This document shows, piece after piece, positions 6,440 to 35,092 of a stretch of 40,484 nucleotides of DNA (position 1 is its first letter; every line of letters starts with the position of its first letter). Origin of the DNA: an uncultured Bacteroidia bacterium (lineage in GTDB: Bacteria > Bacteroidota > Bacteroidia > JACCXN01). Position numbers and translations under genes: made by a program. The notes under the pieces are model-generated. The model was given only the letters and a program-made list of their open reading frames with translations. It searched no databases and was not told where the DNA came from. Where the stretch lies: the NCBI GenBank assembly GCA_937995645.1, contig CALKJP010000054.1, positions 1 through 40,484 on the forward strand, written 5' to 3'.

Positions 6440-8134
6440 ATGAATTATGGTTTCTTTGATTTTTTAACGCTCATAGGCTCTTTAGGCTTGTTTTTATACG
6501 GAATGAAAATAATGAGCGATGGAATACAAAAAGTGGCAGGCGATAAGATGCGAGCCATATTAGGTGCAATGACTCGTAATCGGGTAATGGGTGTTTTAAC
6601 CGGATTATTAATTACAACCATTATACAATCTTCTTCTGCAACCACTGTAATGGTGGTAAGTTTTGTAAATGCAGGATTACTTACCTTGGCTCAGTCTATA
6701 GGAGTAATTATGGGTGCTAATATTGGAACAACTGTTACCGCCTGGATTATATCACTGTTAGGCTTTAAGGTAAAAATGATAGCTTTAGCAATTCCACTTG
6801 TTGGTATTGCTTTCCCTATGCTATTTTTTAAAAAAGATAAGCTAAAATCGTTCGGAGAATTTTTAATCGGATTTGGTATTTTGTTTATTGGCTTAGATTT
6901 TCTTAAAAATTCGGTGCCCAATTTAGAAAGCTCACCCGAAGCTTTAGAGTTTTTAAAAGATTTAACCGGTATGGGACATTTTTCTGTTTTAATTTTTATT
7001 TTCATAGGCACGATACTTACCATAGTTGTCCAATCTTCAAGCGCAGCTATGGCTCTTACTTTAGTATTATGTAATAAAGGATGGATTGGATTTGAAGCCG
7101 GGGCCGCCATTGTATTAGGCGAAAATATTGGTACAACAATAACAGCAAATTTGGCATCCTTAATAGGGAATGTGCACGCAAAGCGAGCCGCCATGTCGCA
7201 CACCTTGTTCAATATATTTGGTGTAATTTGGATGTTTTTAGTTTTTAATGTAGTGCTTCGCGGAATTGATTTATATTTAATTTCTACAGGAGCAACTTCT
7301 CCTTTTCAAGACCCAACATCAATTCCGATTGCATTGGCAATATACCATACAACGTTTAATGTAGCCAATACCTTGTTGCTAATTTGGTTTGTAAAATTTA
7401 TCGAAAAAACGGTTCAAAAAATTATACCCTCAAAAGGAGGAGAAGATGAAAAACATCATTTAGAATACATAGGTACAGGATTAATGAAAGCATATGAATT
7501 ATCTATTATTGAAGCAAAAAAAGAAGTGATAAAATTTGGCGAATTATCCAAACGCATGTTTAATATGATTCCCGAATTATTACTTGAAACTGACAATAAA
7601 AAGTTTATTGAAAAATTTGAGCGTATAAAAAAATATGAACAAATTACCGATAAAATTGAAATTGAAATAGCCAATTTTTTAGTAAAAGTATCCAAAAATG
7701 AAATTAGTGAAGAAACATCGCAACAAATAAGATCAATGCTTCGCATGAATAATAATTTTGAAAAAATTGGAGATGTATGTTATCAAATGTCAATAGCTAT
7801 TAAAAAGAAGAATGAAGAAAAAGCATGGTTTACACCAACGCAACGCGAACGCTTAAAAGAAATGTTTTTACTAATAAATCAGGCGTTTAATACTATGCTC
7901 GAAAATATTAAAGCAGAAGAAGGAAAAGCAGATATTCAAAAAGCAGTTGTAATAGAGAATAAAATAAATGACTTGCGCGATGCAATGCGCGATGAGCATT
8001 TCCGTAGCATAGAAAAAGGCGATTACAATATTAAAAGTGGCTTGTATTACAACAACCTTTATTCGTCTTGCGAAAAAATTGGTGACCATATTATGAATAT
8101 AAACGAAGCAGCTGCAGGGGTTAATTTAGAATAA
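6440..8134 (+). CDS. Na/Pi cotransporter family protein with C-terminal PhoU-like domain
   Basis: Paired QSSSATT and QSSSAAM motifs, GANIGTT / GENIGTT, PhoU-like helical C-terminus. Confidence 0.9.
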   Translation: MNYGFFDFLTLIGSLGLFLYGMKIMSDGIQKVAGDKMRAILGAMTRNRVMGVLTGLLITTIIQSSSATTVMVVSFVNAGLLTLAQSIGVIMGANIGTTVTAWIISLLGFKVKMIALAIPLVGIAFPMLFFKKDKLKSFGEFLIGFGILFIGLDFLKNSVPNLESSPEALEFLKDLTGMGHFSVLIFIFIGTILTIVVQSSSAAMALTLVLCNKGWIGFEAGAAIVLGENIGTTITANLASLIGNVHAKRAAMSHTLFNIFGVIWMFLVFNVVLRGIDLYLISTGATSPFQDPTSIPIALAIYHTTFNVANTLLLIWFVKFIEKTVQKIIPSKGGEDEKHHLEYIGTGLMKAYELSIIEAKKEVIKFGELSKRMFNMIPELLLETDNKKFIEKFERIKKYEQITDKIEIEIANFLVKVSKNEISEETSQQIRSMLRMNNNFEKIGDVCYQMSIAIKKKNEEKAWFTPTQRERLKEMFLLINQAFNTMLENIKAEEGKADIQKAVVIENKINDLRDAMRDEHFRSIEKGDYNIKSGLYYNNLYSSCEKIGDHIMNINEAAAGVNLE

Positions 8135-8396: not shown

Positions 8397-10091
8397 ATGA
8401 AATATTCCGTCTTTGATTTTCTTACTTTGGTTGGTTCGCTTGGTTTATTCCTTTTCGGGATGAAAATTATGAGCGAGGGTATTCAAAAACTTGCCGGAGA
8501 TAAGATGCGTTCTATTTTGGGAGCCATGACTCGTAATCGTTTTATGGGAGTACTTACCGGATTATTAATTACTACCGTAATACAATCTTCCTCGGCCACT
8601 ACGGTTATGGTTGTTAGTTTTGTAAATGCGGGGTTACTTACATTGGTTCAGGCAATAGGTGTAATAATGGGGGCTAATATTGGAACTACAGCTACAGCAT
8701 GGATAATTTCACTTTTAGGTTTTAAAGTTAAAATGATGGTTATAGCCATTCCAATTGTGGGCATTGGCTTTCCAATGTTGTTTTCTAAAAAAGACCAGCT
8801 AAAATCATTAGGCGAATTTTTAATTGGATTTGGGGTTTTGTTTATCGGATTAGAATTTTTAAAAAGCTCAGTACCGGATTTAGAAAGTTCACCCGAAGCC
8901 TTAGAATTTTTAAAAGATTTAACCGGCATGGGGCACCTTTCCATTATAATTTTTATTATTATTGGTTCTATACTTACAATTGTTGTACAATCCTCAAGCG
9001 CCGCAATGGCACTCACGCTTGTATTATGTAATAATGGTTGGATAGGATTTGAACAAGGCGCAGCCATTGTTTTAGGTGAAAATATAGGCACAACCATTAC
9101 CGCTAATATAGCAGCATTAATTGGAAATTCAAATGCAAAACGTGCAGCACTTTCACATACAATATTTAATTTAACGGGAGTAATCTGGATGTTTGTTGTG
9201 TTTAACTTTGCCATTAGCGCCATTGAAAATTACCTTGTTAAAAGCGGAGGAAATTCACCATTAAACGATACTACTGCAATACCTATTGCTTTATCGCTTT
9301 TTCATACTTCATTTAATGTGGCTAATACCTTTTTACTTATTTGGTTTGTAAAATATATTCAAAAAATAGTTGAGTGGGTTATTCCCTCAAAAGGCGAAAA
9401 AGATGAGCAAACGCAATTAGAATATTTTGAAAGCGGATTTATGAGTGCTTCAGAACTATCAATCTTTGAAGCAAAAAAAGAAGTATTAAAATTTGGCGAA
9501 TTAACCAAACGTATGCTTAAAATGGTAGAATCGCTACTGTTCGAAACCGATAATAAAAAATTCAATCAAACCCTAGAACGCATAAAAAAATATGAAGATA
9601 TAATTGATAGAATAGAAGTTGAAATAGCAGATTTTTTAATTAAAGTATCGCGCCACGAAATTAGTGAAGAAACATCAAAGCAAGTACGCAGCATGCTTCG
9701 CATGAATAATAATTTTGAAAAAATTGGCGATTTGTGTTATCAAATGTCTATAATAATTGAGCGCAAAAACAACGAAAAAGCATGGTTTACTCCCACACAA
9801 CGTGAACGATTAAAAGAACTTTTTCAGTTAATAGAAAAAGCATTTGATGAAATGCAAGAAAATATAAAAAAGGAAGATGAAAAAGTGCAGATTAAAAAAG
9901 CTGTGGCTATTGAACAAGAAATAAATCGTTTTAGAGATGAAATACGTGAAGAGCACTTTGCCAGCATCGAAAAAGGCGATTATAATATTAAAAGCGGATT
10001 GTATTATAACAACTTATACTCTTCACTCGAAAAAATTGGCGATCACATTATGAACATTAACGAAGCTGCTGCACGGGTAAATTTGGAGTAG
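8397..10091 (+). CDS. Na/Pi cotransporter family protein, tandem paralog of 6440-8134
   Basis: Same motifs, same length (564 aa), collinear with upstream copy. Confidence 0.9.
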   Translation: MKYSVFDFLTLVGSLGLFLFGMKIMSEGIQKLAGDKMRSILGAMTRNRFMGVLTGLLITTVIQSSSATTVMVVSFVNAGLLTLVQAIGVIMGANIGTTATAWIISLLGFKVKMMVIAIPIVGIGFPMLFSKKDQLKSLGEFLIGFGVLFIGLEFLKSSVPDLESSPEALEFLKDLTGMGHLSIIIFIIIGSILTIVVQSSSAAMALTLVLCNNGWIGFEQGAAIVLGENIGTTITANIAALIGNSNAKRAALSHTIFNLTGVIWMFVVFNFAISAIENYLVKSGGNSPLNDTTAIPIALSLFHTSFNVANTFLLIWFVKYIQKIVEWVIPSKGEKDEQTQLEYFESGFMSASELSIFEAKKEVLKFGELTKRMLKMVESLLFETDNKKFNQTLERIKKYEDIIDRIEVEIADFLIKVSRHEISEETSKQVRSMLRMNNNFEKIGDLCYQMSIIIERKNNEKAWFTPTQRERLKELFQLIEKAFDEMQENIKKEDEKVQIKKAVAIEQEINRFRDEIREEHFASIEKGDYNIKSGLYYNNLYSSLEKIGDHIMNINEAAARVNLE

Positions 10092-28362: not shown

Positions 28363-29580
28363 TTATTCCAACGCTTTTAAACTATCGGCTGCCAATTGTT
28401 GGTAGCCATTGTTTTTTGCAGCAATTTCTTTTAACAATGCTTTTGCTTTTTCATTTTTACCATTTGCTTTATAGCTTAGCGCTAAGTACCATTTAGCAGA
28501 TTCCTGAAATTTGCTATTGTTGTTTTTTGATAATGGCTCTAAATAGTTAATGGCTTTTGTATAAGATGAATTATCAAAAGCAAATACTCCTGCATAATAT
28601 TGGTATTCGTCATTATTATAATTCGTTTGTGCCAGCGAATCCATTTTTAAAAATGCAGCCTCAAAGTTTTTTCTGTTATGCAAAGCAATGGCTTGATTAA
28701 AAGGATTATTTGCATCGAAAACTGCTTTTGCAAGCGATTTATTGGCACTTTCCTTTTCCTGTTTTGTTTCATCTAATACAGCTGCAGGAAACTGTTCAGC
28801 AGAAAAATAACCTTCTGTTTTTTTCTTATTACTTTCTTCTCTCTTTGGAATATCGTGTGTTATGGTAGAGCTTGCAGATGCAGGGGTATGGCTCATTTCT
28901 AAATTATCAATAGCATTAAATCTTCCACTTGCGTTTTTAGTTAAATCATATTCTTTGTTTCCATCCGCTAATACCATTCCTGAATTAGTAGAAGCCTGTT
29001 TTTGTAATGTTGTTTCTTTCATTGGCAAATCATGCTTATTGGCAATTTCTGTTTTTTCAATGATATTTTCTAATATGCTTTTTTGTTCAGATTTTTGTTG
29101 ATCTCTTAAAGTATAATTCGGAAAAATTGTTTGAGGGGCTGGAGCACTTTTTGCTTCAGCAGCTTCTTCGCTGTTGGCGCTATTCTCGGTAGCTTTTATA
29201 ATATCTGTTGGAACTTTAGTGTTCTTAAAAGTTTGTTCACTCACTACGCGACCTTCATCCAGCTTTAGCATTTTATTATAAATCCCGAAACTTATTAAAA
29301 TAAGTACAGATGCAGCTGCTGCCAGTATAACTTTGCTTTGAAAAGGAATAATTTTTCGATTGCTTGAATTTTGATATTTTCTACGAACAGCATGTTCTAT
29401 ATCCCTAATATTTTTGTCTCTGTTTAAACTAAGTCGTAGTCCATCAACGGCATCAGCCAAAACCGGATCTTCTTCAATGGCTTTTGCAAAATCCATTCGT
29501 TCTTTTGCAGGCAAGCCACCTCTTATAAAAGCCAATAGTTTTTCTTTTGTTGGCATGGTATGTTGTGATTTGTTTACCAT
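28363..29580 (-). CDS. Membrane protein, putative anti-sigma-like N-terminus with TPR-like C-terminal region
   Basis: Downstream of and overlapping the ECF sigma gene; one TM (KVILAAAASVLILISFGIY); AIALHNRKNFEAAFLKMDSL...YYAGVFAFDNSSYTKAINYLEPL. Confidence 0.6.
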   Translation of the reverse strand: MVNKSQHTMPTKEKLLAFIRGGLPAKERMDFAKAIEEDPVLADAVDGLRLSLNRDKNIRDIEHAVRRKYQNSSNRKIIPFQSKVILAAAASVLILISFGIYNKMLKLDEGRVVSEQTFKNTKVPTDIIKATENSANSEEAAEAKSAPAPQTIFPNYTLRDQQKSEQKSILENIIEKTEIANKHDLPMKETTLQKQASTNSGMVLADGNKEYDLTKNASGRFNAIDNLEMSHTPASASSTITHDIPKREESNKKKTEGYFSAEQFPAAVLDETKQEKESANKSLAKAVFDANNPFNQAIALHNRKNFEAAFLKMDSLAQTNYNNDEYQYYAGVFAFDNSSYTKAINYLEPLSKNNNSKFQESAKWYLALSYKANGKNEKAKALLKEIAAKNNGYQQLAADSLKALE

Positions 29581-30224
29581 TGTTTTTTACGCATTATGTT
29601 CCACAGATTTCTTTTCCCGTTTTGCAAATAACTTTTCACCTGTTTTAAATCATAGCCTGTAATTGTTGCTACATCCTGATAACTTTTTTCTTCAATATAA
29701 AAAAGTTTAATACAAATTCTCTGTTCGTTGTTTAGTTGTTCTATTGCTAATTCTAACTGTTGTAATTGCTCTTCATTTTCATTGGTATTAGTTAGATGCA
29801 TTTCTTCGGCCATTTCCATAAAAAGCTGTTCACTTTTTTGCCATTTATCAGATATTTTGTTTTTATTTTTTTCAGAACGTAATTGCATAAGGCAGTAATT
29901 GCGAGTTACAGAATGAAGCCAGGAAGAAAAATTACTTATTTCATAATTATGTATTTCTTGCATTACTTTTTCAAAAACTTCCATAACGGCATCTTTACTT
30001 TTTTCTTCATCTTTCAGATATTTCATACAAATACCATATACTAAGTAAGTGTAGCGTTCAAATAATATACCCATACATTCCTTGTCATCGCTTTTTTTAA
30101 AGCGATTTATCAGACTACTATCAGCTTCTTTAGTTTTATTTTTGCGGAATAAAAACAATATTATTTTATTGATTCTCAAAAATACATTATTTGATAAAAT
30201 ACGAATTATTAAATAAATAAACAA
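29574..30224 (-). CDS. ECF-family RNA polymerase sigma factor; true start probably downstream of 30224
   Basis: ECMGILFERYTYLVYGICMKYLKDEEKSKDAVMEVFEKV, NFSSWLHSVTRNYCLMQLR, LNNEQRICIKLFYIEEKSYQDVATITGYDLKQVKSYLQNGKRNL. Confidence 0.85.
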   Translation of the reverse strand: MFIYLIIRILSNNVFLRINKIILFLFRKNKTKEADSSLINRFKKSDDKECMGILFERYTYLVYGICMKYLKDEEKSKDAVMEVFEKVMQEIHNYEISNFSSWLHSVTRNYCLMQLRSEKNKNKISDKWQKSEQLFMEMAEEMHLTNTNENEEQLQQLELAIEQLNNEQRICIKLFYIEEKSYQDVATITGYDLKQVKSYLQNGKRNLWNIMRKKQW

Positions 30225-30274: not shown

Positions 30275-33200
30275 ATGTTTAAACACCATTTAAATAAATT
30301 CTTATCGGCAATTTATTTTGTTGCAATTTCCCTTGTTGTTTTTGGCCAAAACAATACCATAAAGTTTACCCGTATTTCATTAAAAGAAGGCTTATCGCAA
30401 AGTACCGTAAATTCTATATTACAGGATAAACGTGGGTTTATGTGGTTTGCTACTCAGGATGGATTAAACAGATACGATGGATATACTTTTACCGTATTTA
30501 AGCATAGTTTGCAGGATACTAATTCTATTTCCAATAACTTTATACATGCTATTGTAGAAGATGTTTATGGAAATATTTGGGCTGCTACTGATGCAGGTTT
30601 AAATTGTTACAATCCCGAAACACAAAAGTTTACCAGATACTTTGCTCAGCCAAATAATAAAAATTGGCTGGGAAGTAATACCATTCATGCCTTGGCTGCA
30701 GATAAAAACGGAAATATTTGGGTAGGAACCGCTGATGCCGGATTATACTATTTTGATGTAAAAGCAAAATTGTTTAAAGCATACAAATCTGATTTTTCTG
30801 ATTCTACAATTAGCAGTAATGCCATTCAATCGTTATTTATAGATAAAAATGAAAATCTTTGGATTGGTACAGTTGGCGGTGGTTTAAATTTTTTCGACAG
30901 TAAATACAGAAAATTTAAAGTTTATCAAGAAAATGGTAAAGAAACATCCATTAGCAATAATTTAATCTGGTCGGTAATTCAGGATTCTGAAGGTTTTATT
31001 TGGGTAGGAACAAACGATGGATTAAATAGGTTGGATATAAAAAGTCAAACAATTAAGCATTTTAAAAATAAACCCGGAGATGTTTTTTCATTAAGCAATA
31101 ATGTTGTAAAAAGTATTTTAGAAGATAATTTAGGAAATATTTGGGTGGCTACATCAGGAGGTTTAAATCGTTTAAATAAAGCAACAGCAACATTTACCCG
31201 TTTTCAGCATCAGCCTTATATACAATCCAGTTTATCGAATGATAATTTGTTTTCACTTTATCAGGATAGAACGGGTATCATGTGGGTTGGAACCAACAAA
31301 GGAATAAGCAAGTTCGATAACACCAAACAAAATTTTATTCATTACAGAAATATTCCTTACGAAGAAAATACCATTAATAACGATGTAATATGGAGTATTT
31401 ATGAAGATTCGCAGGGCATTTTGTGGGTTGGTACTGAAGAGGGTTTAAACAGAATAGACCGTAAACAATTTAAAGTAAAGCACTATAAACATGGTGCATC
31501 AAAACGTAATGTAAAGTATAACGAGTATATATTTTCTTTGTTTGAAGATAGCGATGGAGTGCTATGGGTAGGAACCGATGCCGGATTATATACATTTAAC
31601 AAATCAGCCGAAAAATTTAATCTTTTTAAAACCGTAGCGAAAGAACTTTCGCCATTAGAAGAAAAACGTGTGTATTATATTTTTGAAGATACAAACAAAA
31701 ACTTATGGGTTGGTACTAAAGAAGGCCTATACATTATTGATAAATCAAGAAAAAATATTCAACATTTTATAAATAATCCAGACGATAGCTTATCAATAAG
31801 CAATAATATTATAAGAGTAATTATAAAAGACAAAAATGATAATATTTGGATTGGCACAAATGGAGGGGGCCTAAACAAAGCTATTGTAATTGAAAAAGAG
31901 GGAGAAATTAATGTTCATTTTAAATCTTATCAGGCAGCAAAGGGAAGTATTAACAACAATATTATCTTAAGTATATACGAAGACAAAAACGGATTCTTCT
32001 GGATAGGAACTTATGGAGGAGGCTTAAATCGCTTCGATCCATCTACCGGTTCGGCTGAAGCATTTACCGAAAAAAACGGATTGTCGAACGATGTAGTTTA
32101 TAGCGTTTATTCCGATTCAAAAAGTAATTTATGGATGAGTACCAATAAAGGTATTTCCATGTTCAATCCTAAAACACGACAATTTTCCAATTACTTTGAA
32201 AACGATGGCTTACAAAGTAATGAGTTTAATATTGGTGCACATTTTCAAAGTAAAAAAGGCGAATTGTTTTTTGGAGGAATAAATGGATTTAATTGTTTTT
32301 TCCCTGATAAAATTTCTATAAATACCATACCTCCACAAGTTGTATTAACCAACTTTCAAATTTTTAACAAACCCATTTATCCCGGAGATAATTCACCACT
32401 TAAAAAATCAATTTCAGAAACCGAAGAATTAGTGCTTTCATACAAAGATGATGTTATAACATTTGAATTTGCCGCCTTGCATTATTCCTCACCTGAAGCA
32501 AACCGCTATGCTTATATGATGGAAGGATTTGATGAAGGCTGGAACTATGTGGATACCAGAAGACAGGCAAGTTATACTAATCTGGATCCCGGCACTTATA
32601 CATTTAGAGTAAAAGCATCTAACTCAGATGGAGTATGGAACGAAAATGGTGTTTCACTAACCGTTATTATTACTCCACCATTTTGGATGCGCTGGTGGTT
32701 TAGAATAGCATTTATTTTAGGCGCAATTGGAATTGTTTTTTACTTCTATCGTAGAAGAATAAATCGCATAAGCAGCCAGAAAAAATATCTGGAAAAATTA
32801 GTGCGCGAGCGCACCATGGAGGTTGTACAACAAAACGAAAAAATTCGCAAGCAAAACGAATTGCTCGAAAAAGAGAAAGAAAAAGTAGAAAAATTACTTT
32901 TAAATATACTCCCACAAGAAACCGTTGAAGAGCTTAAAAGTAAAGGCAAAGCATCACCACGTAGCTACCGTATGGCATCTGTAATGTTTACCGATTTTAA
33001 AGGATTTACCCAGCGTGCAGAATCTATGCGTCCACAAGAACTGGTAGATGCGCTCGACAGATACTTTATAAAGTTTGATGAAATTATTATGAAATATGGA
33101 TTAGAAAAAATAAAAACTATTGGCGATTCATACATGTGTGCCGGAGGGGTACCTATTAGAAACCGAAGCAATCCGATAGATATCGTTTTGGCAGCCTTAG

Positions 33201-34195
33201 AAATACAACGATACATGAAACAAATGCAAGAAGAAAGTATTGCAAAAGGCGAAAAACCATGGGAATTAAGAATAGGTATTCATACCGGCGAAATAATTGC
33301 AGGGGTAATAGGGATAAAACGCTTTGCCTATGATATATGGGGAGATACCGTAAATGTTGCAAGTAGAATGGAAATGCAAGGCGAAGTAGGTAAAGTAAAT
33401 ATATCAGGTGCAACTTACGAACTTATTAAAGATTATTTTGAATGTACATACAGAGGTAAAGTTCCTGCCAAAAATAAGGGCGAAATCGATATGTATTTTG
33501 TAGAAAAAATACGTCCTGAATTATCTGAAAATGGCGATGGAATAATACCAAATGATACATTTAGAGCCAACATGGCTACCAACTTGTATTATCGAATTAA
33601 TTATAGAAAAGCCGAGCAGTTTATATTAAAGAAATTAGAGCGAGAGCTTCCAAAAGATTTATACTATCATGGTTTACATCATACCATTGATGTACGCGAT
33701 GCTGCTGAACGTATTGGCAAAGCAGAAGGAGTAGAAGGAGAAGATATGCATATACTTAAAACAGCTGCCATGTTTCACGATGCCGGTTTTGTAAAACAGT
33801 ATTTTAAAAATGAACCGATAGGAGTGGAAATGTGTAAAGAAATTCTTCCTCAATTTGGGTACAGTCCGGAGCAAATAGAGGCTATTGAAAAAATGATTAT
33901 GGCAACACAAATCCCTCAAAATGCACAAACCCTACTTGAAAAAATTATTTGCGATGCCGATTTGGATTATTTAGGAAGAGAAGAAGATTTCTTTAAAATT
34001 GCAGATACACTTAAAATGGAGCTAATGGCTCGCGGCAAAGTAAGCAGCGATAAAGAATGGGATGCTATACAGATTGCCTTTTTGGAAAAGCATACCTATT
34101 TTACAGATTATTCAAAAAAATACCGTCAACCGGTTAAAGAAAAGCATATTGAAATGATTAAAAAACGATATGCAGAAAATAATTATAAATCATAA
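30275..34195 (+). CDS. Multidomain sensor: two-component-regulator propeller repeats, Y_Y_Y, TM, coiled coil, class III adenylyl cyclase, HD phosphohydrolase domain
   Basis: About 14 xxWxGTxxGLxxxx repeats; TYTFRVKASNSDGVWNE; TM WWFRIAFILGAIGIVFYFY; MFTDFKGFTQRAE, EKIKTIGDSYM, YDIWGDTVNVASRME; HGLHHTIDV...MFHDAGF...CDADLDYLG. Confidence 0.9.
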   Translation: MFKHHLNKFLSAIYFVAISLVVFGQNNTIKFTRISLKEGLSQSTVNSILQDKRGFMWFATQDGLNRYDGYTFTVFKHSLQDTNSISNNFIHAIVEDVYGNIWAATDAGLNCYNPETQKFTRYFAQPNNKNWLGSNTIHALAADKNGNIWVGTADAGLYYFDVKAKLFKAYKSDFSDSTISSNAIQSLFIDKNENLWIGTVGGGLNFFDSKYRKFKVYQENGKETSISNNLIWSVIQDSEGFIWVGTNDGLNRLDIKSQTIKHFKNKPGDVFSLSNNVVKSILEDNLGNIWVATSGGLNRLNKATATFTRFQHQPYIQSSLSNDNLFSLYQDRTGIMWVGTNKGISKFDNTKQNFIHYRNIPYEENTINNDVIWSIYEDSQGILWVGTEEGLNRIDRKQFKVKHYKHGASKRNVKYNEYIFSLFEDSDGVLWVGTDAGLYTFNKSAEKFNLFKTVAKELSPLEEKRVYYIFEDTNKNLWVGTKEGLYIIDKSRKNIQHFINNPDDSLSISNNIIRVIIKDKNDNIWIGTNGGGLNKAIVIEKEGEINVHFKSYQAAKGSINNNIILSIYEDKNGFFWIGTYGGGLNRFDPSTGSAEAFTEKNGLSNDVVYSVYSDSKSNLWMSTNKGISMFNPKTRQFSNYFENDGLQSNEFNIGAHFQSKKGELFFGGINGFNCFFPDKISINTIPPQVVLTNFQIFNKPIYPGDNSPLKKSISETEELVLSYKDDVITFEFAALHYSSPEANRYAYMMEGFDEGWNYVDTRRQASYTNLDPGTYTFRVKASNSDGVWNENGVSLTVIITPPFWMRWWFRIAFILGAIGIVFYFYRRRINRISSQKKYLEKLVRERTMEVVQQNEKIRKQNELLEKEKEKVEKLLLNILPQETVEELKSKGKASPRSYRMASVMFTDFKGFTQRAESMRPQELVDALDRYFIKFDEIIMKYGLEKIKTIGDSYMCAGGVPIRNRSNPIDIVLAALEIQRYMKQMQEESIAKGEKPWELRIGIHTGEIIAGVIGIKRFAYDIWGDTVNVASRMEMQGEVGKVNISGATYELIKDYFECTYRGKVPAKNKGEIDMYFVEKIRPELSENGDGIIPNDTFRANMATNLYYRINYRKAEQFILKKLERELPKDLYYHGLHHTIDVRDAAERIGKAEGVEGEDMHILKTAAMFHDAGFVKQYFKNEPIGVEMCKEILPQFGYSPEQIEAIEKMIMATQIPQNAQTLLEKIICDADLDYLGREEDFFKIADTLKMELMARGKVSSDKEWDAIQIAFLEKHTYFTDYSKKYRQPVKEKHIEMIKKRYAENNYKS

Positions 34196-34267: not shown

Positions 34268-35092
34268 TTAAGAACCTAATATTCCTCCTGAAACGGTAAC
34301 TTGAATTGGATTTACACAAAGCACAGGAATTTGCGGATCGTTCGTTAAAATATGTTGTTCGTCTGATGAACCTAAAAAGTCAGGAACACCAGCCGCATCC
34401 GGATCGTTTACTATTGCAATTAAATCAGCATTGATGGATGCTGCATATCGAATGGTAAGTTTGGTAAAATTTCCTTTATCTTCAGAAATTACAATTTCAT
34501 ACGGAATATTCTGCTCTTTCAAGAATCTTTCGGTAAATGCAACATTTCTTTTTACTGCATTACTCAAAAACTCATCATCTTCTTTTGGGGCAAATACATA
34601 TACTTTTGAACCAAAATATTTAGCTAAATATGCCGTAGAATCAAGCTTTTGCTTGGTTTCTTTCGACATATCCATGGGCAATACTATTTTCTCGTATCCA
34701 TCTGAAATGCTTTTTTCTTGTACCACAATAAATGGAACATTAGAGTTAGTAATAACCTTTATAGCGTTGCTTCCTGTTAAGTGCTGAATTCCTCTTACTC
34801 CATGAGTCCCCATAATAATAAGTTTTGCACCAATTTCTGCGGCTACATCCCCAATATCATCAAAAATATTACCTACACGTGCAATAATATTAACTGTTAC
34901 ATCATGTTTTGCTCTAGTATCTTCTGCAATTTTGTTTAATTTCTCTTTTGCAGCATCAATGGCGTTTTGTTTAGCTACTATGTGCAACAGGTTTATTTCT
35001 GCCCCCAGCTTTTTAGCTAATACAATTGCATGATTCAAGGCACAATCTGCTACTTTGGTAAAATCGGTTGGAACTAAAATTACATTTTTCAT
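34268..35092 (-). CDS. Universal stress protein (two Usp domains)
   Basis: NVILVPTDFTKVADCALNHAIVLAKKLGAEINLLHIV, LIIMGTHGVRGIQHLTGSNAIKVI, VPFIVVQE. Confidence 0.85.
   Translation of the reverse strand: MKNVILVPTDFTKVADCALNHAIVLAKKLGAEINLLHIVAKQNAIDAAKEKLNKIAEDTRAKHDVTVNIIARVGNIFDDIGDVAAEIGAKLIIMGTHGVRGIQHLTGSNAIKVITNSNVPFIVVQEKSISDGYEKIVLPMDMSKETKQKLDSTAYLAKYFGSKVYVFAPKEDDEFLSNAVKRNVAFTERFLKEQNIPYEIVISEDKGNFTKLTIRYAASINADLIAIVNDPDAAGVPDFLGSSDEQHILTNDPQIPVLCVNPIQVTVSGGILGS

Follow-up and report, generated by a model that had tools for sequence, protein, structure and literature searches.

Can a single bacterial receptor both make a cyclic nucleotide and destroy it? The question is raised by a gene within the 40,484-nucleotide stretch of DNA analysed here (the window), from an uncultured Bacteroidia bacterium, which joins a sensor, a class III nucleotide cyclase and an HD domain in one chain (Table 1). 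We consider it probable that the product is a one-component receptor which synthesizes cAMP and has a cyclic-nucleotide phosphodiesterase (PDE) of its own. This reading builds on direct observations: the domains, their intact catalytic residues, the conservation of the fusion and the genomic linkage of the HD family to cyclases.

Table 1. Features of the receptor gene and of its tail-to-tail neighbour (window coordinates).
Feature	Position	Strand	Evidence
Whole receptor gene, 1306 aa, ATG	30275..34195	+	Uninterrupted single frame; Pfam; PDB matches
Putative signal peptide (MFKHHLNKFLSAIYFVAISLVVFG)	30275..30346	+	Read from sequence
14 Reg_prop blades (two 7-blade beta-propellers), predicted periplasmic sensor	30359..32344	+	Pfam; blade spacing; PDB 4a2l
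Y_Y_Y domain, aa 737-799	32483..32671	+	Pfam E 1.2e-20
Putative transmembrane helix, aa about 806-828	32690..32758	+	Read from sequence
Coiled coil plus LLLNILP element resembling a cyclase transducer, aa 833-896	32771..32962	+	Read from sequence
Class III adenylyl cyclase domain, aa 897-1077	32963..33505	+	Pfam E 9.8e-51; six catalytic residues intact
HD phosphohydrolase domain plus helices specific to the family at its N- and C-terminal ends, aa 1108-1301	33596..34177	+	Pfam HD; AF2; conservation
Universal stress protein (Usp) gene in tail-to-tail orientation to the receptor	34268..35092	-	Pfam Usp 4.5e-24; synteny

The chain runs from a putative signal peptide through two seven-bladed propellers, a Y_Y_Y domain, a putative transmembrane helix and a signalling helix into the cyclase and the HD domain. 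This is the order given in the original prediction, and every Pfam match along it (Reg_prop, Y_Y_Y, Guanylate_cyc and HD) lies above its curated cut-off. Pfam places Reg_prop on 13 stretches (E 1.3e-70), while the motif count gives 14 blades, at residues 56, 102, 149, 195, 243, 290, 336, 383, 430, 477, 525, 576, 619 and 665. This spacing of about 47 residues implies two propellers of seven blades each and bears out the roughly 14 repeats that had been proposed; a further blade motif at residue 131 is off-register and was excluded from the count. The coiled coil expected between membrane and cyclase could likewise be seen. The closest solved relatives of the front half are the Bacteroides sensors of the hybrid two-component (HTCS) type, 4a2l (E 3.9e-134) and 3v9f. 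Although the sensor half fits, the chain contains no HisKA, HATPase_c, receiver or AraC HTH domain by Pfam at E 0.1, and we reject HTCS membership because the kinase output is absent; the proposal that a cyclase replaces the kinase proved correct.

The cyclase domain scores 172.4 bits against PF00211, for which the cut-off is 21.9, and its nearest solved proteins are mammalian and mycobacterial cyclases. The metal-binding (D907 and D951), purine-binding (K947 and D1020) and transition-state residues (N1027 and R1031) are all present, and each is retained in 75 to 79 of 79 non-redundant HD-fused relatives, the main exception being the transition-state arginine in four proteins of 520-534 amino acids. 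Each position of the purine pair is kept in 78 of the 79. We take this lysine/aspartate pair to be of the adenylate type; by residue type the suggested specificity for ATP appears right, and the domain, the sole PF00211 match in its own genome (86% complete), is predicted to make cAMP. It would be very improbable, in our judgement, that the cyclase produces a different nucleotide (cGMP, or cCMP or cUMP as in Pycsar) and that the HD domain removes that product instead. The PADLOC PycC model does match the cyclase at 2e-18, and divergent HD relatives are fused to PycTM, but such a PycC match is obtainable from any class III cyclase, and both the type of the purine pair and its conservation point to adenylate. 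Moreover, no PycTM or PycTIR domain was found among the neighbouring genes scanned, on which ground membership of a Pycsar system was rejected.

The HD domain is recognized by PF01966 at amino acids 1134-1229 (E 3.2e-6), and this match, together with the H...HD...D metal ligands, places it in the HD phosphohydrolase superfamily. Across the 149 HD sequences compared, stand-alone genes included, conservation is complete at H1132, H1136, H1168, D1169 and D1227 and stands at 99% for D1229. The claimed retention of H...HD...D extends to the relatives, and because the metal residues and the upstream histidine are invariant or 99% conserved, the site looks catalytic. Such conservation is what catalysis predicts, and it argues against the improbable alternative that the domain is an allosteric sensor or regulatory module, which would bind cAMP, AMP or a metal and regulate the cyclase by feedback with no appreciable turnover. 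That role would nonetheless suit the fixed position of HD directly after the cyclase and its fusion, elsewhere, to other regulatory outputs.

The structure prediction that had been called for gave a confident model of the HD domain (AF2 pLDDT 93); the cyclase-HD pair, modelled from single-sequence input without an alignment, reached a pLDDT of 41, too low to be of use. Foldseek returned YpgQ with ADP as the top match, with PDE4 and PDE5 next, and in the profile search small HD hydrolases lead (2pq7, YedJ and YpgQ), class I PDEs coming afterwards. YpgQ is a nucleotide pyrophosphohydrolase which converts (d)NTP to (d)NMP and PPi. These rankings speak for an HD domain that tunes the cyclase indirectly by hydrolysing some other phosphate substrate, for instance a (d)NTP to (d)NMP and PPi, a cyclic dinucleotide or (p)ppGpp. 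We regard this as unlikely, since the near-perfect co-occurrence with class III cyclases and the fusions to cNMP-binding and PycTM domains, both described below, point to cyclic mononucleotides.

No specific NCBIfam model was found for the receptor HD, the generic PF01966 being the only model over its cut-off, and the domain is part of an uncurated subfamily. Membership of the class I PDEs was rejected, as PF00233 does not match the receptor HD at E 0.01 and gives weak matches in 2 of 28 relatives, and an HD-GYP c-di-GMP phosphodiesterase was rejected as well, there being no GYP in the sequence of this HD domain of about 195 amino acids. The family motif YH[GSN]xxHTxDV, with its tyrosine and both histidines conserved, resembles the class I PDE motif YHNxxHAADV seen in the alignment, though a comparable spacing may also be present in further families of HD proteins. 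A QxxF element (Q1266 conserved in 94%, F1269 in 98%) was compared, in sequence alone, with the purine-binding glutamine and clamp phenylalanine of the class I enzymes. The best PDB match of a divergent family member was a PDE4, at a non-significant E of 0.05 in a single-sequence search.

The architecture is a recurrent one. A scan of species genomes returned 80 loci, among them 28 other complete genes (1266-1356 amino acids) that encode sensor, cyclase and HD as a single frame. Since a census of family and order covered 3 species only, samples of the class and phylum were used. Hand counting in the class sample put cyclase and HD in one frame in about 52 of 295 genomes; in about 30 of the 295, from seven family codes, this frame spans 1249-1354 amino acids (also a hand count, matched by size). 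The architecture census that had been suggested thus reveals a design conserved across many genera of Bacteroidota and not a single oddity. In other chains the cyclase-HD unit is preceded by a TPR sensor (L022), a transmembrane segment only (L027, L029 and L032), a receiver (L170), a kinase-AAA-GAF array (L218) or an unassigned N-terminus (L160 and L161). HD can also form a separate frame, whose opening follows that of the cyclase at a distance of 3 to about 110 bases (L035-L037, L039-L042 and L044-L047); at a few other loci too it is a gene of its own just after the cyclase, and it is absent from some propeller-cyclase chains (L050). On the HD tree, fusion to a cyclase accounts for 7 changes, a count without direction, which indicates that the fusion state changed several times; we report the number of changes and do not claim independent origins. 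Apparent N-terminal extensions before HD at L178 and L179 look like GC-rich read-through and were excluded from the fusions.

The link between HD family and cyclases extends to whole genomes. Among the 295 genomes of the class, 153 have strong HD members (E 1e-55 or better, a line set after the scores were seen), and 151 of these have PF00211 and 2 lack it; a class III cyclase is present in 28 of the remaining 142 and missing from 114, which gives an odds ratio of 307 on raw genome counts not corrected for descent. As an internal control, genomes in which all HD members are weaker gave an odds ratio of 1.03, showing no association; the weaker members fetched are mostly HD-linker-PycTM proteins. 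For 40 stand-alone HD genes, a cyclase gene lies within about 2.2 kb in 9 and none occurs in the fetched stretch in 31. HD is further fused to cNMP_binding together with a SpoIIE phosphatase or a histidine kinase-receiver (L163, L164, L168 and L173; E down to 1e-22, the L164 fusion being assigned by sequence only). A divergent branch carries PycTM, the transmembrane effector of Pycsar (L180, L181, L205, L208, L210, L212 and L214), in genomes both with and without a PF00211 cyclase. Across 297 genomes of the phylum, PF00233 had no match over its cut-off, and PF02112 had none in the receptor's genome. As side observations, HD is joined to a YitT/DUF2179 membrane protein at L174-L177 (by Pfam for L175, from sequence for the others), and L171 and L172 are TPR proteins of 863-880 amino acids with HD at the C-terminus and a TIR-like start read by eye.

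The Usp gene next to the receptor has counterparts by synteny in about ten relatives, which belong to several families; there too it lies tail to tail, 32-234 bp away. Three cNMP-binding proteins are encoded in the receptor's genome, and by eye no canonical cAMP-type cassette was found in them. Divergent from the receptor lies a sigma-70-type gene with regions 2 and 4 (29574-30224, minus strand), followed by a 405-residue open reading frame without a Pfam match, perhaps an anti-sigma factor (28363-29580, minus strand). Elsewhere in the window, two tandem duplicate genes of 564 amino acids (6440-8134 and 8397-10091, plus strand; 77% identical) resemble, by eye, a Na/Pi-cotransporter-like membrane protein.

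In the reading which we favour, the two periplasmic propellers and Y_Y_Y would sense an extracellular ligand as HTCS sensors do, and the signal would pass through one transmembrane helix and the coiled coil to reach the class III cyclase, a homodimer that would produce cAMP, presumably from ATP. The C-terminal HD domain would be a metal-dependent cyclic-mononucleotide phosphodiesterase whose likely substrate, cAMP, is removed as AMP. Because close relatives of the HD domain are almost always found in genomes with such cyclases, the receptor may both make and destroy its signal. Having both activities on one chain could produce a local, fast-resetting pulse or, if they are reciprocally controlled, a switch by which the ligand governs synthesis and breakdown. 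That the HD domain degrades cAMP or another nucleotide, as had been proposed, is likely on strong genomic support: fusion, adjacency, co-occurrence and the cNMP-binding and PycTM fusions. In favour of the phosphodiesterase assignment we counted the intact cyclase, the conserved HD site, the varied cyclase fusions, adjacency, co-occurrence, the cNMP_binding fusions, the lack of PF00233 in the phylum sample and of PF02112 in the receptor's genome, the PDE4 and PDE5 fold matches and the PDE-like motif. Against it we counted the small HD hydrolases as best fold and profile neighbours, YpgQ nearest, the failure of PF00233 to match, the 31 of 40 stand-alone HD genes without a nearby cyclase, the HD-PycTM proteins in genomes without PF00211 and the lack of an identified cAMP effector. 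More tentatively, and with slightly greater doubt than confidence, we suggest that the HD family is an unrecognised bacterial class of cyclic-mononucleotide PDEs, a standing partner of cyclases in Bacteroidota both in cis and in trans, and that in the receptor the ligand reciprocally switches cAMP synthesis and breakdown.

Signalling by cAMP is little described in Bacteroidota, and a 2005 census (PMC1183210) reported no adenylate cyclases in the four genomes of Bacteroidetes available at the time. In the open-licence literature, judged by title and abstract, we found no description of the architecture or of HD-linked cAMP PDEs in Bacteroidetes, and no experiment on the propeller-cyclase-HD design; the parts are known, and the combination and the link between HD family and cAMP are nowhere found described in that literature. 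With no class I PDE over the cut-off, the HD family offers a directly testable candidate for the route of cAMP removal in the phylum. If our reading is true, a complete circuit from ligand to messenger, on and off, resides in one chain, under a sensor head of the kind that HTCS use for polysaccharides.

Several known systems resemble parts of the receptor. The Bacteroides HTCS (4a2l and 3v9f) share its 14-blade Reg_prop double propeller and Y_Y_Y sensor, but they continue into HisKA, HATPase, receiver and DNA-binding output where the receptor has cyclase and HD. Membrane receptor guanylyl cyclases such as natriuretic peptide receptor 1 match in sequence and likewise have an extracellular sensor, a single transmembrane helix and a class III cyclase, whereas the window's receptor has a propeller sensor, adenylate-type residues and an added HD domain. 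YpgQ (5dqw) and the small HD hydrolases akin to it are closest to the receptor HD in fold, at 18-20% identity, but are stand-alone enzymes, and to our knowledge they have not been linked to cyclases. Rel/SpoT and GGDEF-EAL proteins offer a formal likeness to the opposing activities predicted for the receptor chain. Finally, MpCAPE of Marchantia combines a class III adenylyl cyclase with a cyclic-nucleotide phosphodiesterase, the activity predicted for the receptor HD, and both activities were measured on that one chain (PMC5159850). MpCAPE is a plant protein with an N-terminal class I PDE and no propeller, whereas the receptor is bacterial and ends in a member of a small HD family; MpCAPE shows, however, that a cyclase and a phosphodiesterase on a single chain can each be active.
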